Positions 3,967 through 42,370 of a DNA stretch of 64,000 nucleotides are shown here, piece after piece. A model generated the notes under the pieces. The model was not told the origin of the DNA. It did not search any database and saw only the letters and a list, made by a program, of their open reading frames with translations. The translations under genes and the position numbers were made by a program. Positions within the stretch are counted from its first letter, which is position 1; the number at the start of each line of letters is the position of its first letter. Origin of the DNA: Massilia oculi (GTDB lineage Bacteria; Pseudomonadota; Gammaproteobacteria; Burkholderiales; Burkholderiaceae_D); contig NZ_CP029343.1 of assembly GCF_003143515.1 (NCBI RefSeq), forward strand, positions 1,922,001 through 1,986,000. The letters are read 5' to 3'.

Positions 3967-5034
3967 ATGCCGACCGAACTGAATCCCACCGCCCTGCGCC
4001 ACCACCAGATGTTCGACGCCGCCGCGCGCGAATTCGACGTGCCGCGCGCGCTCCTCGAGGCGCTCGCCTGGGCCGAAACGCGCTGGCGTCCGGAGTCGCC
4101 GCAGTTCGGATCGCACCATGGCATGCCGCTGTCCCACGGCATCATGGGATTGCGCGACGATCCCCATTTCGGCCGCTCGCTGCGCCTGGCCGCGGCCCTG
4201 CTCGGCATGCCGTCGCGCCGGCTGGCGCTCGATACGCCCGGCAATATCCGCGGCGCGGCCGCCCTGCTCGCGCTGTATGGTTCGGGACTGACCCGCCAGT
4301 CGCCGCTGGAAGCCTGGGAAGCCGCGCTGGCGCGCCTGTCCGGCATCGCCGGACGCGACATCGCGCAGATCCATACCTATGACATCTACAAGGCGATCCG
4401 CGAAGGACGCCAGGGCCCGGATTTCGCTGTGACCCGGCATCCGGTCGACCTGGCGCGCATCTATGGCCAGGCGCGGCTCGACGTCCTGTCGGCGCGGGTG
4501 CTGACCTTGGCCGACCATCCGGACGCGCTATGGCTGCCGGCGGCCAGCTGCAATTATTCGGTCCGCACGCTGGCGGTCAGCCACGTGACCGTGCACACGA
4601 CCCAGGGTTCGTATGCGGGTGCCATCTCCTGGTTCCGCAACTGCAGCGCCGGCGTGAGCGCCCACTACCTGGTGCGCTCGTCGGATGGGCAGATCACGCA
4701 GATGGTGAGGGAAAGCGACAAGGCCTGGCATGCGGGCAGCGCCAACGGCCATACGGTCGGGATCGAGCACGAAGGCTTCGTCGAGCAGCCGGAGGCCTGG
4801 TATTCGGAGCCGATGCTGCTGGCCTCGAGTGCGCTGGCGCGGGCCATCCTGGCGGCGCGCGGCATCGCGCCGCGCGTGTATGACGGCAGCCGGGGATGGA
4901 ACGCGGTGCTGCCGGATGCCGACTACAACGTGAAGGGGCATGTCAATCACGCCGGGCAGACGCATACCGATCCGGGTGCGGGGTGGGATTGGGCGCGATA
5001 CAAGGAGATGGTGGAATCCCGGGGGTGGCGGTGA
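3967..5034 (+). CDS. N-acetylmuramoyl-L-alanine amidase with transglycosylase-like N-terminal region
   Basis: A 355-residue peptidoglycan amidase. The C-terminal half (about 200-350) is an Amidase_2/PGRP-type zinc domain: VHTTQGSY with candidate zinc ligand His210, the WHAGSANGHTVGIEHEG stretch near 245-260, and HTDPG near 331-336 with the second ligand pair. The N-terminal 140 residues (FDVPRALLEALAWAETRW, then HGIMGLRDD) resemble the small helical fold of lytic transglycosylase-like domains with a possible catalytic Glu37, but that resemblance is weak. I see no signal peptide, so export by a non-Sec route or a cytoplasmic or lysis role is open. SD AGGAA precedes the ATG. Confidence 0.82.
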   Translation: MPTELNPTALRHHQMFDAAAREFDVPRALLEALAWAETRWRPESPQFGSHHGMPLSHGIMGLRDDPHFGRSLRLAAALLGMPSRRLALDTPGNIRGAAALLALYGSGLTRQSPLEAWEAALARLSGIAGRDIAQIHTYDIYKAIREGRQGPDFAVTRHPVDLARIYGQARLDVLSARVLTLADHPDALWLPAASCNYSVRTLAVSHVTVHTTQGSYAGAISWFRNCSAGVSAHYLVRSSDGQITQMVRESDKAWHAGSANGHTVGIEHEGFVEQPEAWYSEPMLLASSALARAILAARGIAPRVYDGSRGWNAVLPDADYNVKGHVNHAGQTHTDPGAGWDWARYKEMVESRGWR

Positions 5035-5145
5035 CGCCCGCGGCGCCAGTGTTTGTCATCGAACCGACTCGTCCTCCCCCGCACGCTAGGCTTGCGATGT
5101 CGGGTGAGGCATGTTGCGGGCGCCCATATCCACCATCCAGGATCC

Positions 5146-6399
5146 ATGCCGAGTCAATTACAATTTTTCCTCGCCCGCCTGCGCGAGAGGCTATGGGTCA
5201 AGCCGCTGCTGGCCTGCTTGCTGTCCGTGCTGGGCGTGCTGCTGGCGCACGTCGTCGACACCATGCCGTTCGATTGGAAAGTGCCGGAAATCGCCCAGGG
5301 CTCGGTCATCGACCTGCTCAAGATCATCGCTTCCAGCATGCTCGGGGTGGCGACCTTCGCAGTCGCTTCGATGGTCGCGGCCTATGTGTCGACCGGACAA
5401 TCGGCCACCGCCCGCGCGTTTCCGCTCGTGGTGGCGGACGACGTGTCGCAGAACGCGCTGTCGATCTTTATCGGCGCCTTCATTTTCAGCATCGTGGCGC
5501 TGAGCGCGTCGACCAACGATTATTTCGGCAAGGCCGGCCGCTTCACCCTGTTCGTGCTGACGCTGCTGGTGCTGGCCACGGTGGTGCTGGTGTTCGTACG
5601 ATGGGTCGACAGCATTGCCCGCCTCGGGCGCCTCGGGGCCGTGATGGCCACCGTCGAAGAAGCCACCCGCCAGTCCATACAGCGGCGCCGGCGGCATCCG
5701 CATCTGGGCGGCATGGCCGCCGACGGACCGCCGTGCGGCCAGGCGTTTCGCGCCACTGAAAGCGGCTACCTGCAGCGCATCGACATGGCCGCGTTACAGC
5801 GCCTGGCCACCCAGGGCGGGTGGCGCATCACCCTGGCAGTGCTGCCGGGGGCGCTGATCACGCCGTCGCGCGCCCTCGGCTACCTGCGTGCGGACGCACC
5901 TTCCGCTGAACCGATCGACCGGCAGGAATTGCTCAAGGCCTTCATGATCGGTCCGCACCGTCACTTCGACGACGATCCCCGTTTCGGACTGGTCGTGCTG
6001 GCCGAGATCGGCGGACGCGCGCTATCGACAGGGATCAACGATCCCGGCACCGGTATCGGGGTGCTTGGCTCCCTGCAACGCCTGTTTGTCCAATGGTCCA
6101 GCCCGGTCGAGCCCGATGAGATCGAATGCGACCGGATCGAAGCGCCGGCCCTGTCGCTGGAAGAGATGTTCGACGATGTCCTGCCCGCCATCGCGCGCGA
6201 CGGCGCCGGCACGCTCGAAGTGGCCGAGCGGCTGCAACGCGTACTGGGAGAACTGGGGGCCTGCGGCGACCCGCAAATGCGCATCCTGGCGCGCCGACAT
6301 GCCGACCTGGCGCTCGCGCGCAGCGTGCAGGCACTCACGTTCGGGCCCGACCTCGAGCGCTTGCGGCGGCGTCACGCCGATTACTGGGACAGCCCATAA
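5146..6399 (+). CDS. DUF2254 family integral membrane protein
   Basis: A 417-residue predicted inner-membrane protein of the DUF2254 family, function unknown. Four membrane segments are visible at roughly 18-38, 61-83, 105-123 and 133-155. A long soluble C-terminal part follows, with conserved-looking RALSTGINDPGTG near 286 and VLPGALITPSRALGY near 228. The ATG at 5146 is preceded by CCAGGATCC (AGGA). It stands alone, 110 bp after the amidase gene in the same direction, and converges on secA with a shared hairpin in between. Confidence 0.8.
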   Translation: MPSQLQFFLARLRERLWVKPLLACLLSVLGVLLAHVVDTMPFDWKVPEIAQGSVIDLLKIIASSMLGVATFAVASMVAAYVSTGQSATARAFPLVVADDVSQNALSIFIGAFIFSIVALSASTNDYFGKAGRFTLFVLTLLVLATVVLVFVRWVDSIARLGRLGAVMATVEEATRQSIQRRRRHPHLGGMAADGPPCGQAFRATESGYLQRIDMAALQRLATQGGWRITLAVLPGALITPSRALGYLRADAPSAEPIDRQELLKAFMIGPHRHFDDDPRFGLVVLAEIGGRALSTGINDPGTGIGVLGSLQRLFVQWSSPVEPDEIECDRIEAPALSLEEMFDDVLPAIARDGAGTLEVAERLQRVLGELGACGDPQMRILARRHADLALARSVQALTFGPDLERLRRRHADYWDSP

Positions 6400-6449
6400 C
6401 CGAAAATTCCGCCGTCGCCATGCGTCGGATCACGCCATCCAGGAAGCAG

Positions 6450-6473
6450 AACGGCCGGGTCGCCCCGGCCGTT
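6450..6473. terminator. Shared hairpin between DUF2254 gene and secA
   Basis: Perfect 10-bp inverted repeat: AACGGCCGGG, loop TCGC, CCCGGCCGTT. It lies between two convergent genes, 50 bp past the DUF2254 stop and 22 bp past the secA stop. The trailing sequence on either strand is only moderately T-rich, so I call it a probable bidirectional terminator. Confidence 0.7.
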
Positions 6474-6495
6474 GTTCATGCTGCGGTTTGCTCGC

Positions 6496-9282
<2,787 letters not shown>

Positions 9283-31794: not shown

Positions 31795-32052
31795 ATGTTG
31801 CGCGCATCCCGTCTCCTCTCGGCCAGCCTGGCCGCCGCCACCCTGGCCCTGCCGGCCGTGGCGGACGCGCGCGTCGTGTCGGCCAGCTTCGAGGCGCGCT
31901 TCGAGATCGTCGCCACCTGCTCGGTCAGCGTCGCCCGCTCGGTGGACGTCGCCTGCGCCAGCCCGGCCACGCCCTACCTGCTCGATGCCAGCGCCGCACC
32001 TTCCCAGCGCAGCACCGACGTGGACGCACGCCGCGTCACCGTCTACTTCTAG
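31795..32052 (+). CDS. Small secreted spore-coat-U-like protein
   Basis: An 85-residue protein with a signal peptide (about 1-25, ending VADA). The rest looks like a shortened spore coat U (SCPU/Csu pilin) fold: FEARFEIVATCSVSV corresponds to the first strands, VACASPATPYLLDA to the cysteine strand, and RRVTVYF to the characteristic C-terminal donor-like strand. The middle of a normal 150-residue SCPU domain is missing. The gene ends exactly at the boundary of an IS remnant: TAG at 32050-32052 uses the first base of the element, and restoring the flank gives TAA, so the C-terminus is natural. Confidence 0.6.
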   Translation: MLRASRLLSASLAAATLALPAVADARVVSASFEARFEIVATCSVSVARSVDVACASPATPYLLDASAAPSQRSTDVDARRVTVYF

Positions 32053-32515
32053 GCGCTGTCATCGTTATCTGTTGATGACCTTGAATGCGATATGCAGCGA
32101 AGGCGCGACAGGCGGCGTTGGCGTCGGTGACCAGCAGCGCTTGCGAATCGGGTTTCGGCAGCAAGTGTTTGATCAGTTGGGTCACCGTCAAGGCGCCGCG
32201 GCCGGTGACGGCATCGATGGTCTGTCCGCTGCGGTCGCGCGCTGCCAGGATGCAGTCGAGGTGACGTGAGCTGCCGCGCAGGGCGGCCCTGCCACCGCGT
32301 TTGCGCGGAGGGCGATCACTCGGTCGAGCCCGGCTGCCGGATGCAGGGCGGCGAGCACCTGCTGGCGCCGCGGCTGGTTCAGCAGCGGCAACCGGGTGAA
32401 CAGCTTCGCAAACTCCGGCGCTTTCATTGCGCGCTCCCGATCGATGACGACCGGGGTTGGACCGCGGGTCAGCTCAGCAGTTCAACACTCATCCATATCC
32501 AACGGGTACAGCGCC
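32052..32515 (-). mobile_element. Deleted IS1595-type insertion sequence remnant with inverted repeats and 8-bp target duplication
   Basis: 464 bp bounded by GGCGCTGT (32052-32059) and its inverse ACAGCGCC (32508-32515); about 19 of 27 terminal positions match between ends. It is flanked by TACTTCTA (32044-32051) and TGCTTCTA (32516-32523), a 7/8 direct repeat of the 8-bp length expected for the IS1595 family. It encloses the broken transposase gene and cannot move by itself. Confidence 0.8.
32075..32427 (-). pseudogene. IS1595-family transposase pseudogene (internal deletion and frameshift)
   Basis: The N-terminus reads MKAPEFAKLFTRLPLLNQPR through AAGLDRVIAL. It then jumps, with a frame change, to RPPRKRGGRAALRGSSRHLDC and on to ILAARDRSGQTIDAVTGRGALTVTQLIKHLLPK and LLVTDANAACRAF. 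Those are the N-terminal and DDE-core regions of IS1595 transposases as I know them. The CxxC zinc ribbon and first catalytic Asp (DEMY-type) are lost by deletion; the second Asp (TDANAA) remains; the C-terminal catalytic part is absent. Confidence 0.8.
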
Positions 32516-32594: not shown

Positions 32595-33626
32595 GTGAAT
32601 CATTCCGCCCAACCTCCCGACGCCCAGGCAAGCGCGGACAATGCCGACCGCCTGGTGCACTGGCTGATCGACAGCGTGCAGCTGGAAGCGACCGTGTTCC
32701 ACCTCGGCCAGTACTGCGGCCGCTGGCAGGCGTCCACCGCCGGCCGTGGCCTGGGCAGCTTCCACCTGGTGCTGCATGGCGCGTGCTATCTGCACGCCGA
32801 GGGCCGCGCGCCGGTCCATTTGCGCGCGCGCGACGGCGTGTTCATGCTGCGCGACACGCCGCACTTCCTCAGTCCCGACCCCGACCCGGCCAGCGCCCGT
32901 CCCGGCCTGCCGATGCAGCAGCTCGGCCAGGCCGCGCCCGACGCCACCGCCCTGGCCTGCGGCTTCTTCCACTTTCGCAGCGCGCTCAGTACGCTGATCG
33001 CCGACTCCTTCCCGGACAGCCTGGTGCTGCGCGCCGACGACCCGTCGCTGCAGGCCCTGAATGCGCTGTTCGAACTGATCCTGCTGGAGCCACCGCGCGA
33101 CCCCGATGCTCCGTCGCCGCTGGTGGCGCGCCTGGCCGAGCTGATGTTCTTCTATGTCATCCGCCACGTGGCGCGCCAGCAGGACATCGCCACCGGCCTC
33201 TTGGCCGTGGCCAGCCGCCCCGAGTTCTCGCCCCTGCTCGACCGCATGATGCAGGAGCCCGGCCAGGACTGGTCGACCGGGAACATGGCGCGCGCCGCCC
33301 ATATGTCGCGCTCGAGCTTCTACAAGCACTTCAGCGAGGCCAGCGGCCAGGCGCCGGCGCAGTTCCTGCTGCTGCTGCGCATGAAGATCGCGGCCCAGCG
33401 CCTGCACGGCGGCGAGACGGTCGAGCGCACCGCCGGCCACGTCGGCTACAACTCGTATGCCGCCTTTTCGCGCGCCTTCCACAAGGTGATGGGCGAGCAT
33501 CCGGGCACCTTCCGGCGCGGCCGGCACGTCCACGTCAAGACGCCTGCGAGTGGGCCGATTCGGACGATCGAGCAGAAAACAAGGACGGCTGTGTCCGAAC
33601 GTGTTTTTCATTCGCCGCTAAAATGA
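32595..33626 (+). CDS. AraC-family transcriptional regulator with cupin-type sensor domain
   Basis: A 343-residue regulator. The N-terminal half (about 20-200) is a cupin_6-type ligand-binding domain (LGSFHLVLHGACYLH, RDGVFMLRDTPHFL). The C-terminal 240-330 contains both AraC helix-turn-helix units (MARAAHMSRSSFYKHFSEASG and VERTAGHVGYNSYAAFSRAF). I choose the GTG at 32595 (VNHSAQPP); upstream codons run into the IS remnant and are not plausible. The SD is weak. It sits 31 bp upstream of the AhpD-ACAD-ABC genes in the same direction and is their likely regulator. Confidence 0.87.
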   Translation: MNHSAQPPDAQASADNADRLVHWLIDSVQLEATVFHLGQYCGRWQASTAGRGLGSFHLVLHGACYLHAEGRAPVHLRARDGVFMLRDTPHFLSPDPDPASARPGLPMQQLGQAAPDATALACGFFHFRSALSTLIADSFPDSLVLRADDPSLQALNALFELILLEPPRDPDAPSPLVARLAELMFFYVIRHVARQQDIATGLLAVASRPEFSPLLDRMMQEPGQDWSTGNMARAAHMSRSSFYKHFSEASGQAPAQFLLLLRMKIAAQRLHGGETVERTAGHVGYNSYAAFSRAFHKVMGEHPGTFRRGRHVHVKTPASGPIRTIEQKTRTAVSERVFHSPLK

Positions 33627-33657
33627 CGAACCCAACGCTTCAATAGAGAGAGCCGCC

Positions 33658-34212
33658 ATGTCCCGCCTGACCCTGCATACCCAAGAAACCGCCCCTGAAG
33701 GCAGCCGTCCCTTCGTGGACAAGGCCGTCGCCAACAACGGCTTCCTGCCGAACCTGATCGGCGTGCTGGCCAATTCGCCGCAGGCGCTGCAGACCTATAT
33801 GACGGTGTCGGGCATCAATGCCGAGACCAGCCTCCCCCTGCCGGAACGCGAAGTCGTGCAGATCACCGCGGCCCGCATCCACGGCTGCGACTTCTGCATC
33901 GCCGGCCACACCGCCATCGCCCTCAAGAAGGCTCAGCTGCCGGTCGAGACCGTCCGCGCCATGCAGCAAGGCCAGGACACCGGCGACGCCAGGCTCGACG
34001 CCGTGCGCCGGTTCTCGGAAGCCGTCATCGCCACCCGCGGCGGCGTGAGCGACGACGCCCTGGCCGCCTTCAAGGCCGCCGGCTACAACGACCAGCAGGC
34101 GCTGGAAGTCGTGCTGGGCATCAGCCTGGCCACCCTGTGCAACTTCGCCAACACCCTGGCCGGCAGCGCGATCAACCCGCAGCTGCAACCCTACGCCAGC
34201 GGAGCCATCTGA
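33658..34212 (+). CDS. AhpD/carboxymuconolactone decarboxylase family protein with CxxC
   Basis: A 184-residue AhpD-like protein of the CMD superfamily. The redox motif is complete: HGCDFCIAGHTAIA with Cys77, Cys80 and His84, as in alkylhydroperoxidase D-type enzymes that reduce peroxides or disulfides. SD-like AGAGAG precedes the ATG. Its stop overlaps the ATG of the flavoenzyme gene (TGATG). In this context it probably deals with peroxide or a reactive intermediate made by that flavoenzyme; this is inference. Confidence 0.85.
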   Translation: MSRLTLHTQETAPEGSRPFVDKAVANNGFLPNLIGVLANSPQALQTYMTVSGINAETSLPLPEREVVQITAARIHGCDFCIAGHTAIALKKAQLPVETVRAMQQGQDTGDARLDAVRRFSEAVIATRGGVSDDALAAFKAAGYNDQQALEVVLGISLATLCNFANTLAGSAINPQLQPYASGAI

Positions 34213-35294
34213 TGTCGAACGGCGAACAAACGACGCTGCCGCCGGCCCTGGCCGAGTGGCTGCAGGCTAACGCCGACCAGCTCGACAGCACGCCCGCGCT
34301 GGCGTCCGAGGTCGTGCCGCGCCTGGCCGGCGCCGGCCTGTTCGCCGTCGGCGTGCCGCAGGAACTGGGCGGCAGCGGCGGCGCCACGATCGATGCGATC
34401 GACGCCATCGCGGCCGTGGCCGAGCATTCGGTCACCGCCGCCTTCGTGTTCTGGGGCCAGCGCACCTTCATCGAATACCTGCTGCAAAGCCCGAACGAGG
34501 CCATGCGCGCGCGCTGGCTCGGGCCGCTCGTGCGCGGCGAATTCGCCGGCGCCACCGGCCTGTCGAACGCGATGAAATTCCTGTCCGGGATCGAGTCGCT
34601 GCAGATCACGGCCACCCCGAACGACGCCGGCTGGCAGCTCGACGGTTCGCTGGCCTGGATCACCAACCTGCGCAAGCAAGGCTTCATCGCCGCCGCCGCC
34701 GTCAATTCGGCCGGCGACCTGCCGCCCGCGGTGGTCGCCTTCATCAGCGACAGCGCCGGCGTCACGCGCAGCCCCGACCTCGAACTGATGGCCCTGCGCG
34801 GCAGCAATACCGCCGCCGTCAGGATCGAGGGCGTGCAGATCGGCGAAGGCGAAGTGCTGCATCCGAACGCGCGCGCCTGGCTGCCGGGCGTGCGTCCGTC
34901 CTTCCTGGGCCTGCAGTGCGGCCTGTCGATCGGCCTGGCGCGCGCCAGCCTGCGCGCGGCGCATGCGCTGTCGACCGCCATGCGCGGCCCGCTGCTCGAA
35001 CGCATCGCGGCCCAGCAGCTGGCGCTCGAAGACCTGGTGACGCAGCTGAAGGATGGCGTGCACGATGGCCGCTTCAAGACCGCCGCGGCCCCGATGTTCC
35101 GCCTGCGCATCGCGCTGGCCGAAAGCGTCCAGCAAGCCGTCATGCTCGAGCTGCAGGCCAGCGGCGGCCGCGCCTACCTGGTCGACCGCGACCGCAGCTT
35201 CGCGCGCCGCTGGCGCGAATCGGCCTTCATCCCGATCGTCACCCCGAGCCTGACCCAGCTGCAGGTCGAACTCGCGAAGCACGCCGCGGCATGA
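34212..35294 (+). CDS. Acyl-CoA dehydrogenase-like flavoprotein
   Basis: A 360-residue protein of the acyl-CoA dehydrogenase fold. The N-terminal helical domain includes GLFAVGVPQELGGSGG near 40-55; the middle beta domain carries the FAD/substrate segment ATGLSNAMKFLSG near 117-129; then a C-terminal helical bundle. I do not see the canonical catalytic glutamate loop of true acyl-CoA dehydrogenases, and the neighbours encode a NitT/TauT importer. A flavin-dependent monooxygenase or desulfurase-like role (DszC/SfnB branch) is therefore as likely as beta-oxidation. It overlaps genes on both sides. Confidence 0.78.
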   Translation: MSNGEQTTLPPALAEWLQANADQLDSTPALASEVVPRLAGAGLFAVGVPQELGGSGGATIDAIDAIAAVAEHSVTAAFVFWGQRTFIEYLLQSPNEAMRARWLGPLVRGEFAGATGLSNAMKFLSGIESLQITATPNDAGWQLDGSLAWITNLRKQGFIAAAAVNSAGDLPPAVVAFISDSAGVTRSPDLELMALRGSNTAAVRIEGVQIGEGEVLHPNARAWLPGVRPSFLGLQCGLSIGLARASLRAAHALSTAMRGPLLERIAAQQLALEDLVTQLKDGVHDGRFKTAAAPMFRLRIALAESVQQAVMLELQASGGRAYLVDRDRSFARRWRESAFIPIVTPSLTQLQVELAKHAAA

Positions 35295-36073
35295 CGGCGC
35301 AGGCGATCGAACGAGGCGCGACCGCGCTGTCGGCGTCCAGCCTGCGCATCGGCTACGGCGGCAAGACCGTGGTCGACGACATCTCCCTCACCATCGACAG
35401 GCGCGAGATCGTCTGCCTGCTGGGCGGCAGCGGCTGCGGCAAGTCGACCCTGCTGCGCGGCCTGGCCGGCCTCAGCCCGGCCCAGGCCGGCCAGGTCAGC
35501 TTCCTGGGCGAGCCGCTGCTCGAACCACACCCGCGCGCGGCGCTGGTTTTCCAGCAACCGAGCCTGCTGCCGTGGCTGAACGTCGAAGGCAATGTCGGCT
35601 TCGGCCTGGACTTCGCGCGCCAGCCGGCGATCGCCCGCGACGCCCGCAAGCAGCGGGTGGTCGAGGCCATCGAGGCGGTCGGCCTGGCGGCGCGCGCGCA
35701 TGCCTATCCGGCCCAGCTGTCCGGTGGCCAGGCGCAGCGCGTGGCGCTGGCGCGCGCTCTCGCCCGCCAGCCCGAGCTATTGTTCGCCGACGAGCCGTTC
35801 TCGGCGCTGGACGCGATCACGCGCGCCGAGATGCAGACCCTGCTGGTCGACCTGGTGCACCGCTGGCATACGGCGGCGCTGCTGGTGACCCATGACATCG
35901 ACGAAGCGATCCTGGTCGCCGACCGCATCCTGCTGATGGCCGGCCAGCCGGGCCAGCCAGGCAAACTCGTGCGCGAATGGAGGGTCGACCTGCCGCGGCC
36001 GCGCCACGAGCACGCCGAGGGCGTGGTCGGGCTGCGCCTGGACATCATCAAGGCCCTGCGCGAAGGCGCCTGA
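35291..36073 (+). CDS. ABC transporter ATP-binding protein, NitT/TauT (SsuB/TauB-like)
   Basis: A 260-residue ATPase of an anion or sulfonate type importer. Walker A GGSGCGKST at 45-53, Q-loop FQQPSLLPWLNV, signature LSGGQAQR at 143-150, Walker B LLFADEP at 163-169 and H-loop VTHDIDEA. The ATG at 35291 overlaps the flavoprotein stop by four bases (ATGA). It pairs with the binding protein and permease that follow. The family covers nitrate, taurine, alkanesulfonate and thiamine precursors, so the substrate cannot be named. Confidence 0.92.
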   Translation: MTAQAIERGATALSASSLRIGYGGKTVVDDISLTIDRREIVCLLGGSGCGKSTLLRGLAGLSPAQAGQVSFLGEPLLEPHPRAALVFQQPSLLPWLNVEGNVGFGLDFARQPAIARDARKQRVVEAIEAVGLAARAHAYPAQLSGGQAQRVALARALARQPELLFADEPFSALDAITRAEMQTLLVDLVHRWHTAALLVTHDIDEAILVADRILLMAGQPGQPGKLVREWRVDLPRPRHEHAEGVVGLRLDIIKALREGA

Positions 36074-36116
36074 ACGCCGCTTCCAGAACCACGAATACGA
36101 ACAACAAGGAAAACCC

Positions 36117-37343
36117 ATGAACGACCCGATCCACATCTGCGCTTCTTCCGACTGCGATTGCGGCATGACCCGGCGCGACTTCCTGCGCATGTCGGCGCTG
36201 ACCGGCGCCGCGGCCGCGTCGCCGCTGCTGTTCGCGGGCGACGCGATGGCGCAGAATTTCAGGGGTGACGACCAGCCGGTGAGAATCGGCTACCTGCCGA
36301 TCACCGACGCCGCGCCGTTGCTGGTGGCGCATGGCCGCAAGCTGTTCGAGCAGCAGGGCCTGAAGGTCGAGACGCCGCGCCTGTTCCGCAGCTGGGCCCA
36401 GATCATCGAGGCTTTCGTGGCCGGCCAGGTCAACGTGATCCACATGCTGTCGCCGGCGACCCTGTGGGTGCGCTACGGTTCGAAATTCCCGGCCAAGGTG
36501 GTGGCCTGGAACCACATCAACGGTTCCGCCCTCACGGTGCAGAACGAGATCAACTCGGTGCTCGAGCTGGGCGGCAAGACGATCGCGATCCCGTTCTGGT
36601 ACTCGATCCACAATATCCTGCTGCAGAAGATCCTGACCGCCAACAAGCTGAGCGTGGTCACCCGCGCACGCGGCGCCGCGCTCAAGCCCAACGAGGTCAA
36701 CCTGATCGTGCTGGCGCCGTCCGAAATGGTATCGGCGCTGGCGACCAAGTCGATCGCCGGCTACATCGTGGCCGAGCCGTTCAATGCGGTGGCCGAGAAT
36801 GCGAAGATCGGCAAGGTGCTGCGCTTCTCGGGCGACGTCTGGAAGAACCATGCCTGCTGCGTGACCTTCCTGGCCGAGCGCGACCTGAACGACAAGCCGG
36901 AATGGTCGCAGCGCGTGACCAATGCCATCGTCAACGCCCAGCTGTGGTCGCGTTCGAACCAGGTCGAAACGGCCAAGCTGCTGGCCGCGACCGGCCCCAA
37001 CAAGTACACCCCGCACAATCTGCAGGCGCTGACCAAGGTGCTGGCCACCACCGATTACTCGGACTACGAAAAGCGCGGCATCGTGGCCCATCCGGCCTGG
37101 CAGCAGCGCCGCATCGACTTCCAGCCGTTCCCGTTCGCCTCGTACACCGAGGAGCTGGTGCGCGCCATCGGCCAGACCAGGGTCGAGGGCGACACCGGCT
37201 TCCTGGCCAAGCTCGATCCGAAGTTCGTCGCGAAAGACCTGGTCGACGACCGCTTCGTGCGCAAGTCGATCCAGGCCGTGGGCGGCCCCGCCAAGTTCGG
37301 ATTGCCGGCCAACCTGCTGCGCACCGAGACGATCGCGGTCTGA
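36117..37343 (+). CDS. NitT/TauT-type ABC substrate-binding protein with Tat signal
   Basis: A 408-residue periplasmic binding protein of the NrtA/SsuA-like class (VRIGYLPITDAAPLLVAHG at the mature start). It has a twin-arginine signal: TRRDFLRM at 18-25 followed by a hydrophobic Ala-rich stretch and AMA cleavage near residue 45. Export in folded form suggests a bound cofactor or ligand. The n-region is unusual: three cysteines and clustered acids (HICASSDCDCG, residues 7-16) precede the RR. No lipobox. Forty-three bp after the ATPase gene. Confidence 0.88.
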   Translation: MNDPIHICASSDCDCGMTRRDFLRMSALTGAAAASPLLFAGDAMAQNFRGDDQPVRIGYLPITDAAPLLVAHGRKLFEQQGLKVETPRLFRSWAQIIEAFVAGQVNVIHMLSPATLWVRYGSKFPAKVVAWNHINGSALTVQNEINSVLELGGKTIAIPFWYSIHNILLQKILTANKLSVVTRARGAALKPNEVNLIVLAPSEMVSALATKSIAGYIVAEPFNAVAENAKIGKVLRFSGDVWKNHACCVTFLAERDLNDKPEWSQRVTNAIVNAQLWSRSNQVETAKLLAATGPNKYTPHNLQALTKVLATTDYSDYEKRGIVAHPAWQQRRIDFQPFPFASYTEELVRAIGQTRVEGDTGFLAKLDPKFVAKDLVDDRFVRKSIQAVGGPAKFGLPANLLRTETIAV

Positions 37344-37345
37344 TC

Positions 37346-38113
37346 ATGCTGGGACGTTTCTTGTGGCCGGTCGCCGGCTTTGCGATCGCGCTGCTGCTGT
37401 GGGCCTGGGGCGCCAAGGGACTCGAAGAGAGCACGCCGATCGCGGCGATGTTCGCGCCGATGGAGACCTTCGAGGCCTTGCGCGTGATGGTGCTGGGGCC
37501 GGACATCTGGGTGCACGTGGCCACCAGCCTCAAGCGCGTGGCCGTGGGCCTGGGCTTCGCGATCCTGTTCGGCGTGCCGCTCGGGATCCTGGTGGGCATG
37601 TCGAAAGCCTTCAGCCAGGCCAGCACGCCGCTGTTCCAGCTGCTGCGCATGGTCTCGCCGCTGTCGTGGATGCCGCTGGCGGTGATGGTGCTGGGCGTCG
37701 GCGATGCGCCAGTCTACTTCCTGCTGGCCTTCGCCGCCGTGTGGCCGCTGATGCTCAGCACCGCCGCCGGCGTGGCCCAGCTCGACCCGAACTGGATGCT
37801 GCTGGCGCGCTCGCTGTCGGCCACCAGATGGGAAGTGATCTGGCGCCTGGTGCTGCCGGGGATCACGGCGCAAATCCTGACCGGCGTGCGCCTCGCGATC
37901 GGCATCATCTGGATCGTGCTGGTGCCGGCCGAGATGCTGGGCGTGTCCGCCGGCCTCGGTTACTTCATCCTCGACACGCGCGACCGCCTGGCGTATTCGG
38001 AACTGACGGCCGCCATCATCCTGATCGGCCTGCTCGGTTATGCGCTCGACTATGCGGCGCGCTGCGTGCACGCGCGCTGGCTGCACTCGGTGCCTTCCGA
38101 TCCGCTGCGCTGA
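37346..38113 (+). CDS. ABC transporter permease, NitT/TauT type
   Basis: A 255-residue membrane component with about six helices. The cytoplasmic EAA-type loop carries LARSLSATRWEVIWRLVLPGI near 150-170, the contact point for the ATPase. The N-terminal helix (WPVAGFAIALLLWAWGA) directly follows the start. ATG at 37346 comes two bases after the binding-protein stop. Last gene of the AraC-AhpD-ACAD-ABC unit, closed by a strong terminator. Confidence 0.92.
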   Translation: MLGRFLWPVAGFAIALLLWAWGAKGLEESTPIAAMFAPMETFEALRVMVLGPDIWVHVATSLKRVAVGLGFAILFGVPLGILVGMSKAFSQASTPLFQLLRMVSPLSWMPLAVMVLGVGDAPVYFLLAFAAVWPLMLSTAAGVAQLDPNWMLLARSLSATRWEVIWRLVLPGITAQILTGVRLAIGIIWIVLVPAEMLGVSAGLGYFILDTRDRLAYSELTAAIILIGLLGYALDYAARCVHARWLHSVPSDPLR

Positions 38114-38122
38114 TCGCCTCTG

Positions 38123-38145
38123 CTCCCCGCCTCGCGGGGAGTTTT
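38123..38145 (+). terminator. Terminator of the ABC importer operon
   Basis: Stem CTCCCCGC / GCGGGGAG with CTC loop, followed directly by TTTT. It lies 10 bp after the permease stop, in the gap before the convergent pilus operon. Confidence 0.9.
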
Positions 38146-38153
38146 CCATCGCA

Positions 38154-39167
38154 TCAAAACGTCAGCTGCACCGTGATCGTATCGCGGTAATTGCCCGGCG
38201 TCGGCGCGCGCTGGCGCGGCACCAGGCCGTGCATCATGACGTTCTGCGTCGCGCCGTTCCCGGTGCCGGTGTACATCACGGTGCCGCCGGTGCCGTCGCC
38301 CCAGATCGCGCCGTCCGGCGTCGACGAGATCCGGTAGCCCACGGTTTCGCCGGTCAGGCTGTTCTTCATGGTGCGCGCCGCCGGATTGCCGGACAGGCCG
38401 CCGTTCATCGAAATCTGGTAGCTGCTGTTGGCGGTGCAGGTCACGCTCAGCGGCGCGCTGGCGCGCCGCTCGCTCAAGGGGCTGCCCGCGCCGAACGTCA
38501 GGTTGCTGGCGCTGATCAGGCAGTTGTTGGTCACGGTGGCGCGCGCCTGGAAGGCGAAGGATTCGGTGGCGCCGGCGGTGCACGACTTGCCGGCCCCGAA
38601 CGAATACTGCAGCGTGCCGTGGCCGGCGAAACCGGCCGTATACAAGGTGTCGGTATTGCCCGAGGTACCGACTCCGGACAGGCTGGACGCGGGGATGCGT
38701 CCATAAATCGTGACGCTCTGGGTCACCCCGCCCAGCGACAGCAGGCCGACCATGGTGCCGGTGATCGGCTTGGCGCCGATGGTGCTGGTATTGCTGCCCC
38801 ACAGCGATGCCGCCGAATAGGAAGGATCGGCATACAGGTTGAAGCCGAGGCGCCGCGCACCGCTGGTCATGTAGCGCGGATCGCCGGTGCCGCCGCCGCT
38901 GCCCGGGCCCAGGTTGACGCAGACATTGGCGGCCGGCAGCAGCAGCGGCGACTGGCCCAGCAGCAGGGTCCAGTAGCAGGTCACGTTCAGGGTGCCGCGC
39001 GCCGTGTAATCGGTGTTGGCGATCGGACTGACCACACCGAAGTCGACGTCGGTCATGGTGACGGTGCAGTTGTCGGCGCGCGCGCCGGGAATGGCCAGCA
39101 GCCACAGCAGCGCCGCCGCAAGCAACGCCCGCAGCAGCCGGACATTCATCGTCGTCATCTTCATCAT
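38154..39167 (-). CDS. Two-domain spore coat U protein, probable Csu-type pilus tip adhesin (CsuE-like)
   Basis: A 337-residue secreted protein with a signal peptide (about 7-32, LLWLLAIPGARA) and two SCPU domains in tandem. The first starts DNCTVTMTDVDFG and the second NNCLISASNLTFG; the C-terminal strand YRDTITVQLTF closes the second. Two-domain members in Csu operons are tip adhesins. The start at 39167 has AAGGAA upstream and overlaps the usher stop by four bases; several in-frame ATGs follow, so the exact start is uncertain. Confidence 0.8.
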   Translation of the reverse strand: MMKMTTMNVRLLRALLAAALLWLLAIPGARADNCTVTMTDVDFGVVSPIANTDYTARGTLNVTCYWTLLLGQSPLLLPAANVCVNLGPGSGGGTGDPRYMTSGARRLGFNLYADPSYSAASLWGSNTSTIGAKPITGTMVGLLSLGGVTQSVTIYGRIPASSLSGVGTSGNTDTLYTAGFAGHGTLQYSFGAGKSCTAGATESFAFQARATVTNNCLISASNLTFGAGSPLSERRASAPLSVTCTANSSYQISMNGGLSGNPAARTMKNSLTGETVGYRISSTPDGAIWGDGTGGTVMYTGTGNGATQNVMMHGLVPRQRAPTPGNYRDTITVQLTF

Positions 39168-41596
39168 GGTCGTTTTCCTTGCACGGGCTGGCATGCCAGC
39201 GGTCCGATGGTCGGCAGCTCGCCATCCACCGGTTTGTAGTCGAAGCGCACCTCGCAGGCATCCGCGCCGGTCCCGACCGTCACCCGGTTCCGGGCGCGCA
39301 GGCCTTCCACGAACAGCACGCCATCGTAACCGACGACCGCGCCGGTTGCAGCACCTTCGAGCCGTGCGGGAGTGCCGGCTTCCGGCGGCCGGCCGTCGGG
39401 CCTGAGCACCATCAGCGTCGCCGCCGCATAGCGCTCGATCTCGAAGCGCGCCACCACGCCGGCATACTCGCGCGGCACCACGTCCTGGCTGCTGCCGGCG
39501 ATGCGGGTGTCGGGCGGCAGCGACGATGGATCGATCGCGATCCGGTTGGCGGCATACGGCTGCAGGTCCGGCACCAAGAGGCGGCCCTTGCTGTCGGTGC
39601 GGCCGATCACGCGGTTGTCCTGCAATACCGGCAGGTCCGGCGCGCCGGCCGAGACCAGCGCGAAACCGTTGCCGACTTGGCGCGCGGCGACCAGCGCGCC
39701 ATCCATGGCCACCAGCGCGCCGCTGAAGTCCATGCTGGTATTGCTGACGCCATTCACGTGTTGCGTGGCGATGGCGGCGCGGCCGTGGGAGCCGAGGTAC
39801 TGGACCTGCGCCTGGTGGTAGCGCTGGGCGCCGGCCATGCCGGACTGCAGCGCCCAGCCCAGGCCGCCCTCGAAGTCCGGCGCCCGGCCCAGCGACACCG
39901 TGGCCGCCGTGTCGCCGCGCTGGCGACCGGCGTTGCTGTTGAACGAGAGGCGCGAATCGAAGGCCATGCTGAAGGCGAAGGTGATGCCGCGGTCGGCGCG
40001 CCGCTTCAGGTCCTGGAAGGCGCTGACGCTCAGGTTGCCGCGCCGCCCGACGCTGCGCGACCAGGCCAGCGACAGGTTGCGCGTGACGCCCGGCGTCTCT
40101 TCGACCGGGCCGACCGGGGCGCCGCCGCCGGCGCCGGGGCCGAGCGGGTCGGGCGCCAGCCCCAGGCCGTTCCCGGACGGCAGGCGCAACCCGATCAGGC
40201 TGACGCTCAAGCCATTGCCGCGGTACGAGGTGCTCAGCGTCGCGCGATCGAGCGCACGCGATACCGGCACGCCTTCGAGCACGCCCAGGTCGCCGTAGTT
40301 GCGGCTGGCGCGCACCGACTGCACGTCGAAGGCGAAGCGCGGCGACACGTATTGATAGCCGAGGCTGGCCTGGCCGCCGCGATGGCGGCCGCCGCTCGCG
40401 GCCAGCGCGGCGCTGAACACGCCCGCGCCCGGGATGCGTTTCAACACCCCGGCGCCGGCCAGCACCAGGCCGCTGCCGGCCTCGGCATGCCCCTCAAGCG
40501 TCATGGTGTCGCTCCATCCGTGGCGCCAGGATGCGAGCGCCGACGCGCTGCCGTAGCGGAAGGAATGCAGGCCGTAGTCGCGCCGCAGCGCGCCAACCGA
40601 GACCGCGAAATCGCTCAGCCCGCGCGCCAGCAGGCGGGTATCGACGTACAGCGGCAAGGTGGTGGCCACTTCGCGTCCGAGGGCGTCGCGGGTGACGACG
40701 GTGGCCTGGCCGGCGCCGTTCAGGCCCGTCACCTGGTCGACCACGAAAGGGCCGGTGGGCACGGCGGCGCTGAACTGGCGCACCCCGTTCACGTACAGGT
40801 CGACGCTGCTGGGCACCACGGCGGAACCTGCGACCGAGGCCACCGGATAGGTCACGAGGTCGGGCCGCAGTTCGAAATTGCGGCGCCATTCGACGCCGCC
40901 CAGGCGCATGGCGCGTGTCCAGCTCAGCGCCGGGGCGACGGTGTCCCCCACCTGCCAGGTCGAGAGATTGTCCTGCGACGAGCGCACCCAGCTGGTGTCG
41001 TAGCGGGTGTAGCCCTGCCCCGGCCCACGCAGGATGGCTGCGCCGGTGCTGTTCAGCGTTCCATGGCGGTCGAAATAGCGCAGGTCGAGGGTGCCGGCCA
41101 TCGAGCGCGAGCTGGTCTGGCCGAACAGGTTGTAGTTGAGCAGCATGCCGCGGCTGGCCTGGGCCGGTCCGGCCTGGCGCACCGTGCGCGCGCTCAGCAC
41201 ACGCTGCTCGCGCAGGGCGTCGGTCAGGGTCAGGGACAATGCCTGCTTCGCGGTGTCGTAGGCCCAGCGCATGCCGCTCACCTCGTCCAGCGAAAAATCG
41301 CTGCGCGCGGCCACGCCGAAGCGGGCCGGGTCCAGGCCCAGTTCGCGCAGGGTCTCGACCGTCATGCGCAAGGTGGCGCCGATCTGGATGACGGACACGA
41401 TCTGGCCGGTCGGCTGGCCGTCGATGCTGGTGTCGAGGAAGAGTTCGACCGCTTGGTCGGCCACTGCGGATGCGGACGCGGCCTGGGCCACCCCGGCCAC
41501 TTGCGCCGTCGCGGCGGCGATCGGCGTCAGGCTCAGGACCAGCAGGCACGACGAGCGCAGCGCCCGCCATGGCCGGCGGCCGGTCAGTGGCTGCAC
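39164..41596 (-). CDS. Fimbrial outer-membrane usher (CsuD-like)
   Basis: An 810-residue outer-membrane usher that assembles and secretes pilus subunits. Signal peptide about 1-32; N-terminal chaperone-binding domain (ELFLDTSIDGQPTGQI), the beta-barrel with SSVDLYVNGVRQFSAAVPTGPF plug-proximal motif, and C-terminal domains ending ACQPVQGKRP. It starts with GTG at 41596, six bp after the chaperone gene, and overlaps the adhesin gene. Confidence 0.92.
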   Translation of the reverse strand: MQPLTGRRPWRALRSSCLLVLSLTPIAAATAQVAGVAQAASASAVADQAVELFLDTSIDGQPTGQIVSVIQIGATLRMTVETLRELGLDPARFGVAARSDFSLDEVSGMRWAYDTAKQALSLTLTDALREQRVLSARTVRQAGPAQASRGMLLNYNLFGQTSSRSMAGTLDLRYFDRHGTLNSTGAAILRGPGQGYTRYDTSWVRSSQDNLSTWQVGDTVAPALSWTRAMRLGGVEWRRNFELRPDLVTYPVASVAGSAVVPSSVDLYVNGVRQFSAAVPTGPFVVDQVTGLNGAGQATVVTRDALGREVATTLPLYVDTRLLARGLSDFAVSVGALRRDYGLHSFRYGSASALASWRHGWSDTMTLEGHAEAGSGLVLAGAGVLKRIPGAGVFSAALAASGGRHRGGQASLGYQYVSPRFAFDVQSVRASRNYGDLGVLEGVPVSRALDRATLSTSYRGNGLSVSLIGLRLPSGNGLGLAPDPLGPGAGGGAPVGPVEETPGVTRNLSLAWSRSVGRRGNLSVSAFQDLKRRADRGITFAFSMAFDSRLSFNSNAGRQRGDTAATVSLGRAPDFEGGLGWALQSGMAGAQRYHQAQVQYLGSHGRAAIATQHVNGVSNTSMDFSGALVAMDGALVAARQVGNGFALVSAGAPDLPVLQDNRVIGRTDSKGRLLVPDLQPYAANRIAIDPSSLPPDTRIAGSSQDVVPREYAGVVARFEIERYAAATLMVLRPDGRPPEAGTPARLEGAATGAVVGYDGVLFVEGLRARNRVTVGTGADACEVRFDYKPVDGELPTIGPLACQPVQGKRP

Positions 41597-41602
41597 GGGA
41601 AC

Positions 41603-42358
41603 TCAGTCCCTGGCGACGGCGGCGCTGGCGGACTGGGGCCGGGTATTCACCGTGGCCTGGATCGCCAGGGATGCCGGCATGGCGGCCGCGACGTCGGGCG
41701 GCAACGCCCACTCGCGGGCGCGGCCCGGCAGCGCATAACCCAGCAGGCCCTTGGAGAGCTCGACGTCGCGCGCGCCGATGCGCACGCTGGTGGCGCCGAT
41801 CTGGGCGTGCAGGGTGCCGGCGTTGAAGGCCCGCAGGTGCCAGGCGCCGCCGCGCTGGAAGGTGCTCCATTCGAGCCTGGGCGCGGCCTGGCCGTCGGCC
41901 GGCAGCACGAAGGCCGGCACCGAATACTGGAGGCGGATGGCGACGTTGCCCTGCTGGCTGTCGCCACGCGGGAGTTCGTCGATGAGGATGCGGTAGGTTT
42001 GTTCGGCGGCGCCCGTGGCGGCCACCCCTTGCGCGCCGGGGCGGCGCACCAGGCGGATGGTCTGGGTGCTGTTGGGGGCGACTTCGATCACCGGCGGGCT
42101 GGCCACCAGCTGGGTGGTCGGGGTCAGGTCGTCGACGCCGTTACGCTGGTCCCATGCGTACACCCTCACCTGGCCGTACAGGGGCGTATCGCCATTGTTC
42201 TGGAGCTGGATGCCGGCCGCGTTCTGGCCCGGCTGGAAACTGATCGAGACCGGCGAAATCTGCAGGTTGGCGCCGTGCGCCAGCGGGCCGGCCGCCAGGA
42301 CCATGGACAAGGCTGTAAAGCGGGCCGCAGCGATTGCGGCGCAGCGAAGACTCCGCAT
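41603..42358 (-). CDS. Periplasmic pilus chaperone (CsuC-like)
   Basis: A 251-residue chaperone with two immunoglobulin-like domains. Signal peptide about 1-28; first domain ANLQISPVSISFQPGQNAAGIQLQN, the VIEVAPNSTQTIRLVR strand G1-like segment, then YRILIDELPR. It donates a strand to nascent subunits before usher delivery. I use ATG 42358 because GGAG lies five bases upstream; a GTG two codons earlier is less well placed. Confidence 0.92.
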   Translation of the reverse strand: MRSLRCAAIAAARFTALSMVLAAGPLAHGANLQISPVSISFQPGQNAAGIQLQNNGDTPLYGQVRVYAWDQRNGVDDLTPTTQLVASPPVIEVAPNSTQTIRLVRRPGAQGVAATGAAEQTYRILIDELPRGDSQQGNVAIRLQYSVPAFVLPADGQAAPRLEWSTFQRGGAWHLRAFNAGTLHAQIGATSVRIGARDVELSKGLLGYALPGRAREWALPPDVAAAMPASLAIQATVNTRPQSASAAVARD

Positions 42359-42370
42359 GCACACTCCAGT

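Follow-up and report, generated by a model that had tools for sequence, protein, structure and literature searches.

What does a bacterium gain from an operon in which an importer of small anions is joined to a flavoprotein with the fold of an acyl-CoA dehydrogenase (ACAD) and to a small thiol protein? Such an operon of six genes begins at position 32595 of a stretch of 64,000 nucleotides from Massilia oculi (contig NZ_CP029343.1, positions 1,922,001 to 1,986,000; hereafter the window). The module is a real, conserved unit that is functionally uncharacterised, and its substrate has to be inferred. The preferred reading, to which a probability of a little under 40% is given, is that the operon imports and oxidises a small sulfur-bearing anion of the thiocyanate kind, with thiocyanate (SCN-) itself as the leading candidate. 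The components of the operon are as follows.

32595-33626, plus strand: AraC-family regulator with a Cupin_6 sensor domain and a GTG start (Pfam Cupin_6, 8.5e-30, and HTH_18)
33658-34212, plus strand: AhpD/carboxymuconolactone-decarboxylase (CMD) thiol protein, with a CxxC plus Glu and His (Pfam CMD)
34212-35294, plus strand: ACAD-fold flavoprotein with the signatures SN-x-MK and TP[SA] (Pfam Acyl-CoA_dh_N)
35291-36073, plus strand: ATPase of an ATP-binding cassette (ABC) importer, NitT/TauT type (Pfam ABC_tran)
36117-37343, plus strand: periplasmic substrate-binding protein (SBP), NrtA/CmpA-like, with a twin-arginine translocation (Tat) signal (Pfam NMT1_2)
37346-38113, plus strand: permease of the ABC importer (Pfam BPD_transp_1)
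38122-38145, plus strand: hairpin followed by TTTT, a probable terminator (9-pair stem with one G-U, 3-nt loop, fold z -2.95)

The first-pass annotation of this DNA had described six genes in one direction with overlaps or tiny gaps, and boundaries, spacings and families all agree with that description: the junctions are, in order, a 31-bp gap, a TGATG overlap, an ATGA overlap, a 43-bp gap and a 2-bp gap. Its strong terminator fared less evenly, as the hairpin and its run of T are present but are absent from the listing of a terminator scan that demands five T per eight bases; the promoter and terminator scan of the operon returned nothing useful. Among the NCBIfam matches listed (25 of 187 in the case of the ATPase), no equivalog or subfamily model reached its cut-off for any operon protein, and the models that passed were a generic AhpD core-domain model and a TAT-signal domain model.

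The genes are kept together across genomes. A scan of named genomes yielded 403 confirmed stretches, of which the best 80 are the named loci referred to here. The order AhpD-ACAD-ATPase-SBP-permease is retained on one strand in 75 of these 80, and an AraC gene stands beside the five-gene core in 71 (38 have it on the same strand; the other 33, in which it is divergent, all carry Pseudomonas titles). Of the nine exceptions among the 80, three (L084, L114, L115) are contigs no more than 5-8 kb long. A chance gene cluster was rejected on the strength of the retained five-gene order, and the earlier concern that the genes might not be conserved together has thus been answered. Within the family, 19 of 195 genomes, the window's own included, carry the flavoprotein at 60% or above, and all ten of the other 18 that were fetched hold all six genes in the same order. 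Within the genus, the distribution is patchy, with a close flavoprotein homologue (at least 68%) in 8 of 61 Massilia genomes, again including the window's own, and a homologue of about 46% in 13 further genomes. A flavoprotein that stands alone was seen in other Massilia and in a few other Burkholderiales (L217-L226, at 44-48%, L182 and L116), and the neighbours of the importer-less Massilia homologues of about 46% were uninformative. Titles among the named loci include Massilia, Janthinobacterium, Pseudoduganella, Oxalicibacterium, Herbaspirillum, Zoogloea, Azoarcus, Thauera, Variovorax, Ottowia and many Pseudomonas, and plasmid records widen the range to Variovorax, Burkholderia, Roseomonas, Agrobacterium, Bartonella and Deinococcus, the annotated plasmid regions having been examined for the last four. 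Beyond the module genes and overlapping frames, no further neighbour, judged by position and strand, recurred in more than 27 of the 80 named loci in a search based on single-linkage clusters, which may hide a family.

The ACAD fold that had been proposed for the flavoprotein was borne out by Pfam, by a structure model (pLDDT 91.9) and by fold matches. A fold comparison with DszC and true dehydrogenases, suggested at the same time, upheld the fold but did not tell the classes apart: the search listed true dehydrogenases together with monooxygenases (DszC, 3x0x; KijD3, 3m9v), and such matches cannot separate the two. The catalytic residues are a different matter. At the position of the catalytic Glu in enzymes of the medium-chain acyl-CoA dehydrogenase (MCAD) type, the 59 aligned family rows hold Thr in 57, Ala in one and Ser in one, the window's residue being Thr344; nine generic ACADs hold Glu in two and Ala in seven, the latter seven with an earlier Glu (YER/FER). 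The alternative Glu stretch of the isovaleryl type is gapped in the family, with no Glu in the eight rows displayed, and SN-x-MK stands in place of the GSD loop in the alignment. Trp149 presumably has a role on the flavin side. Across 398 genomes, the scores of the flavoprotein family end at 314 bits and those of generic ACADs begin at 117. A beta-oxidation enzyme, which the first-pass annotation had recognised would undo its reading, was rejected because there is no Glu at the catalytic site, the MCAD-type residue being missing in 59 of 59 rows; judged from these alignments, the flavoprotein is not an ordinary dehydrogenase. It is accordingly hardly credible that an ordinary acyl-CoA dehydrogenase has ended up by chance among importer genes, AhpD serving as a general-purpose antioxidant, an explanation opposed by the absent Glu, the altered loop, the separation of scores and the conserved gene order with the importer.

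One close named class is that of the SfnB/DszC monooxygenases, in which the dehydrogenase Glu has been lost. The best named NCBIfam model of the flavoprotein is SfnB (TIGR04022), at 48 bits against a cut-off of 430.9, and NF043015 gave 21.6 bits against 850. The ACAD fold and a sulfur context are common to these enzymes and to the module; they differ in their signature motifs, and the window operon adds a thiol-protein partner and an importer.

Evidence that bears on the substrate comes from a sister branch of the family. In the sample of 398 genomes there were 28 hits: 13 loci in which an OsmC-like protein takes part, 12 AhpD loci in which the five-gene core is complete (the window and 11 that were fetched), and three that are mixed or solitary (L193, L196, L182). 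An OsmC gene is adjacent in all 13 OsmC loci, nine of which carry a rhodanese-type sulfurtransferase (64-71% to a reference) and nine a cyanase within 10.5 kb. Ten more loci, from the family sample (L028-L037, 25-32% to the window flavoprotein), have OsmC and a sigma-54 regulator in 10/10, cyanase in 7/10 after extension and rhodanese in 2/10. The fullest arrangement, in locus L189, is one nine-gene run of ATPase, SBP, permease, OsmC, ACAD, rhodanese, cyanase, an HcaD-like ferredoxin reductase and a 2Fe-2S ferredoxin. These clusters share the window's flavoprotein family but have OsmC in place of AhpD, in many cases a sigma-54 regulator in place of AraC, and a dedicated rhodanese, cyanase or both. 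In a midpoint-rooted tree of SBPs, for which the tool warned of long branches, the SBPs of six OsmC loci (L135-L137, L188, L189, L197) join those of the AhpD and DUF4242 loci, on the window's side of a split (100/100) from the cyanate/nitrate-type SBPs. At the level of whole genomes, cyanase was found in 17 of the 24 that bear the family and in 53 of the 374 that do not (Fisher 3e-9). Of the nine genomes whose only branch is the AhpD one, five have it (p 0.005); both values are uncorrected for kinship. The window's host has a cynS gene next to a beta-carbonic anhydrase gene (G000:C1:2011950-2013113), 55 kb from the module.

Relatives also point to a source of electrons. A rubredoxin fused to a NorW-like reductase lies beside the flavoprotein in L137, and a small rubredoxin does so in L142 (Neisseria) and L193, as well as, by similarity only, in L196. 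Because rubredoxin or ferredoxin genes adjoin the flavoproteins of these relatives, it is suggested that the flavoprotein receives its electrons from an iron protein and reacts with O2; the window operon holds no rubredoxin, ferredoxin or reductase gene of these kinds. In L142, a Neisseria gonorrhoeae record, AhpD, flavoprotein and small rubredoxin stand side by side at 4807-6866, and no importer was found in its 13-kb stretch; a similar trio occurs in genome G300 (L196). Two further loci are recorded here as separate observations. The flavoprotein gene of the OsmC branch in L198 (genome G526, about 6768-7850) carries one in-frame TGA, which may mark a pseudogene, a sequencing error or recoding, and in L134 (Pseudonocardia plasmid pBCI1-2) a DUF4242-type module is followed by a hydroxyethylthiazole kinase, an LLM-class flavin oxidoreductase and a rhodanese.

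The slot beside the flavoprotein is filled by three kinds of thiol protein. The Glu-CxxC-His motif of AhpD/CMD proteins, with its characteristic spacing, provides the catalytic residues of AhpD, and the window's protein keeps it as E65, C77, C80 and H84; its best solved relatives are 3lvy and 6e8l, and the peroxid_rel model TIGR01926 gave 61.4 bits against a cut-off of 81.8. A DUF4242 protein replaces AhpD in Synechococcus pANL, Thermomicrobium and Pseudonocardia, with an identical CxC in all three, and an OsmC-like protein does so in Methylocystis, Pseudosulfitobacter, Marinobacter and Corynebacterium, all nine of the aligned OsmC-like sequences sharing one Cys. The catalytic residues of OsmC/Ohr proteins include a second, resolving Cys, and in the OsmC proteins of L135, L137, L189 and others that position reads Ser. 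Because of this substitution, the module's OsmC proteins are unlikely, on their sequences, to be ordinary two-Cys peroxidases. In the flavoprotein tree most OsmC loci stand apart from most AhpD/DUF4242 loci, with exceptions (the AhpD loci L193, L196 and L141 group with OsmC, and the OsmC locus L139 with DUF4242) which imply either that the thiol partner was swapped more than once or that the tree errs on long branches. The regulator also has conserved cysteines: Cys41 and Cys122 are present in 21 of 21 aligned sequences (the window and 20 chosen loci) and Cys64 in 20, and its best named NCBIfam model is RclR (NF040475), at 81.6 bits against a cut-off of 400.

The combination of an NMT1_2 SBP, a BPD_transp_1 permease and an ABC ATPase identifies the transporter as an importer of the NitT/TauT type, and the SBP is structurally nearest NrtA and CmpA by VIA-align, ahead of SsuA and TauA. 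The earlier description was of an anion/sulfonate-type importer; among the sulfonate models, SsuA_fam, the best named SBP model, reached 101.1 bits against a cut-off of 163.5, and the taurine model 34.6 against 304.25. The nitrate importer models also fell short (ntrB on the permease, 142.6 against 209.05; ntrCD, 196.5 against 291.8 bits). A motif H245-x-C247-C248 is invariant in the SBP of 22 of 22 aligned relatives; the NrtC and CmpC sequences shown, from NrtABCD and CmpABCD, lack its Cys pair. Such a motif could belong to a system that takes up a thiophilic metal or an organometal complex, in which the flavoprotein and the thiol protein would deal with the ligand once it is set free. SAO is an organometal system, and SaoP is the best named permease model (157 bits) with SaoX also scoring (61.7 bits); a Staphylococcus aureus relative of the SBP, 3un6, was moreover solved with zinc bound. 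Yet these scores, like that of SaoA (180 bits), lie below their cut-offs (295, 300 and 360, respectively), no extra family recurs beside the module in more than the 27 loci given above, judged by position, and the linkage of cyanase and rhodanese in the sister branch is left unexplained, so that import of a metal is quite improbable. A literature search on the SAO system gave no relevant title, and one on S. aureus locus tags listed nothing of relevance.

Published data touch on copies of the module in two organisms. In Pseudomonas aeruginosa, PA2327-PA2332 looks orthologous to the window operon at the level of sequence, with its AraC gene divergent; PA2331 is taken here to be the AhpD gene and PA2332 the AraC gene, and the SBP (P0213) is 58% identical to that of the window. 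In the available part of one source (PMC6085387), the signal peptide printed for PA2328 agrees with the first 36 residues of P0213 at 34 positions and with the L076 copy at 32. The published annotations of PA2327-2330 (permease, SBP, ATPase and acyl-CoA dehydrogenase, in that order) agree with the module. Another source, likewise seen in excerpt (PMC8466066), reports that in a PA2504 mutant PA2328-30 drop slightly along with sulfur genes. Excerpts of further studies list PA2330 and PA2331 as core quorum-sensing genes (PMC8863103), state that quorum sensing activates PA2327-2331 (PMC3315558), and place PA2328-31 among 12 genes induced by endogenous hydrogen cyanide (HCN) (PMC10687435, citing Frangipani 2014). 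In Synechococcus elongatus, a copy of the module lies on plasmid pANL, 10-15 kb from srpI, a serine acetyltransferase gene and one cysK and 2-3 kb from another; its genes are presumably those named srpJ-M. The passages available from PMC8049743 describe srpI as a sulfur-starvation gene and pANL as a plasmid of sulfur-related genes.

The induction by HCN, together with the cyanase linkage in 9/13 OsmC loci and 7/10 loci of the family sample, could also be accounted for by a cyanide/cyanate module, in which oxidation of cyanide, or of a cyano compound, by the flavoprotein would yield cyanate, and an NrtA-like cyanate importer would feed cyanase. CynABD is a known cyanate importer, and SBPs beside cyanase in the OsmC branch (L028, L033) share the HxCC motif. 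HCN needs no importer, however, the sulfur plasmid and the rhodaneses (9/13) would require a separate reason, and the AhpD branch has no linked cyanase, which together make this explanation improbable.

Thiocyanate was proposed because an oxidation that leaves sulfane sulfur, for rhodanese, and cyanate, for cyanase, points to SCN-. Also in keeping with this proposal are an SBP of the anion type, the loss of the Glu, the interchange of thiol partners, donors that are iron proteins, the copy on a sulfur plasmid and the response to cyanide. The general reading of the first-pass annotation (import of a small compound, flavin-dependent oxidation, and handling of a thiol or peroxide) is partly supported.

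Several observations weigh against thiocyanate. By analogy the substrate is carried over from the sister OsmC branch, and the lack of a linked cyanase or rhodanese in the AhpD branch is the main gap in the argument. Among the AhpD loci from the 398 genomes, the 11 that were fetched gave no cyanase, and their best rhodanese-like match was 29%. The 64-kb window lacks a cyanase and a good rhodanese as well, and of the named loci 0/80 had cyanase, OsmC, DUF4242 or the reductase and 1/80 had a weak rhodanese match. Because of the missing cyanase in the named loci, both the thiocyanate proposal and its full pathway, set out below, were rated slightly lower. Five of the nine cyanase-linked OsmC loci belong to one genus. 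No importer or thiol-protein gene of the module's kinds was found next to the Massilia homologues of about 46% in the ten fetched of 13, and a flavoprotein with no nearby importer occurs also in L116 (none of the module's own), L182 and L196. Foldseek placed 3un6 first for the SBP model, with SsuA not far behind NrtA, and that model is of moderate confidence (pLDDT 70.7), with low values at the HxCC loop. The response of PA2328-31 to HCN may reflect copper or respiration stress, mutants in these genes show no hypochlorite sensitivity in the part of the source seen (PMC10687435), and the sulfur co-regulation of PA2328-30 is weak, at -0.7 to -0.9 in the excerpt of PMC8466066. Literature searches returned nothing on a thiocyanate monooxygenase or importer, one of them being weak (blank even for common phrases), and nothing relevant that links thiocyanate with cyanase, OsmC or ACAD.

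Some of these same observations would suit desulfurisation of an organosulfur compound, of the sulfonate or sulfone type, as in SfnB/DszC, with a small sulfonate taken up by the importer, a reduced-flavin ACAD-fold monooxygenase cleaving the C-S bond and sulfite passing to cysteine. The AhpD branch without adjoining cyanase or rhodanese, the excerpted reports of a sulfur context on pANL and of weak sulfur co-regulation in P. aeruginosa, the occurrence of DszC among the fold matches, and SfnB and SsuA_fam as best named models of flavoprotein and SBP are all consistent with it. Both models nevertheless score far under their cut-offs, the SBP is nearer NrtA/CmpA than SsuA/TauA by VIA-align, a flavin reductase gene is absent from the window's six, and the cyanase and rhodanese of the sister branch are again left unexplained; desulfurisation of this type is therefore considered rather unlikely, if the most serious competitor of thiocyanate.

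If thiocyanate is the substrate, a full pathway can be sketched, although its complete form (an importer with an H-x-C-C SBP, an ACAD-fold thiocyanate S-monooxygenase producing intracellular hypothiocyanite, a thiol protein yielding cyanate and persulfide, and an oxidant-sensing AraC protein) is doubtful in its entirety. The NrtA/CmpA-like SBP, its H-x-C-C motif perhaps touching the ligand, would pass the anion to an ABC importer that is recognisable as such by family. The ACAD-fold protein, no longer a dehydrogenase, would hold reduced flavin and react with O2, and the resulting flavin hydroperoxide would oxygenate the sulfur, converting SCN- to hypothiocyanite (OSCN-). The thiol protein, be it AhpD, OsmC or DUF4242, may then take the electrophilic sulfur as a sulfenyl thiocyanate that decays to cyanate and persulfide; the exchange of partners is observed, and the chemistry assigned to them is conjectural. 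Where such genes are linked, rhodanese would relay the sulfur and cyanase clear the cyanate, work that in the window's host would fall to general cell enzymes. The Cys-bearing AraC protein might detect the substrate or an oxidant. The benefit would be sulfur, with nitrogen as well in the OsmC branch, together with detoxification. Thiocyanate dehydrogenase and thiocyanate hydrolase are metal enzymes of pathways that use SCN- as a source of nitrogen or sulfur, and the dehydrogenase would likewise end in cyanate and sulfur, but the route proposed here employs a flavoprotein and a thiol protein instead.

The surroundings of the operon in the window include a truncated copy of a multi-copy element (32052-32508; 35 matching pieces genome-wide, its own included) that ends 86 bp 5' of the AraC start and may have changed the operon promoter. 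The element is missing at the matching place in the relatives L049, L050 and L051, and in L051 pieces that match it sit just downstream of the module instead. A recent arrival of the module with this insertion sequence remnant was rejected: L049, L050, L051, L052 and L054 share synteny over the module and one flank or more, and yet the remnant is absent at this place from L049-L051. On the other side, a chaperone-usher-type cluster (SCPU-domain protein, usher and PapD-like chaperone) occupies 38157-42364 on the minus strand, convergent with the module.

The gene order is already present in annotated genomes and as PA2327-2332, and is not an unseen object; no function for this gene set was found in the literature searched. 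The module is a combination of an NrtA-type importer with an ACAD-fold oxidase, and its recognition brings together, as a single conserved unit whose shared substrate can be tested, genes that number in the hundreds (one scan confirmed 403 stretches) and now go by the labels acyl-CoA dehydrogenase, nitrate transporter and carboxymuconolactone decarboxylase. That AhpD, OsmC and DUF4242 replace one another in a single slot hints at the role of these thiol proteins, and a candidate function becomes available for PA2327-2331, which the excerpts cited above show in quorum-sensing and cyanide transcriptomes, where they had gone unexplained. If thiocyanate is indeed the substrate, the module would give this anion, a common pollutant that also occurs in body fluids, a new pathway and the ACAD fold a new reaction, and, should the full pathway hold, it would be a further, flavin-based route for SCN-. 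Such a route would be common to cyanide-producing Pseudomonas, to cyanobacteria starved of sulfur and to mucosal Neisseria, the last with no importer in the stretch examined.

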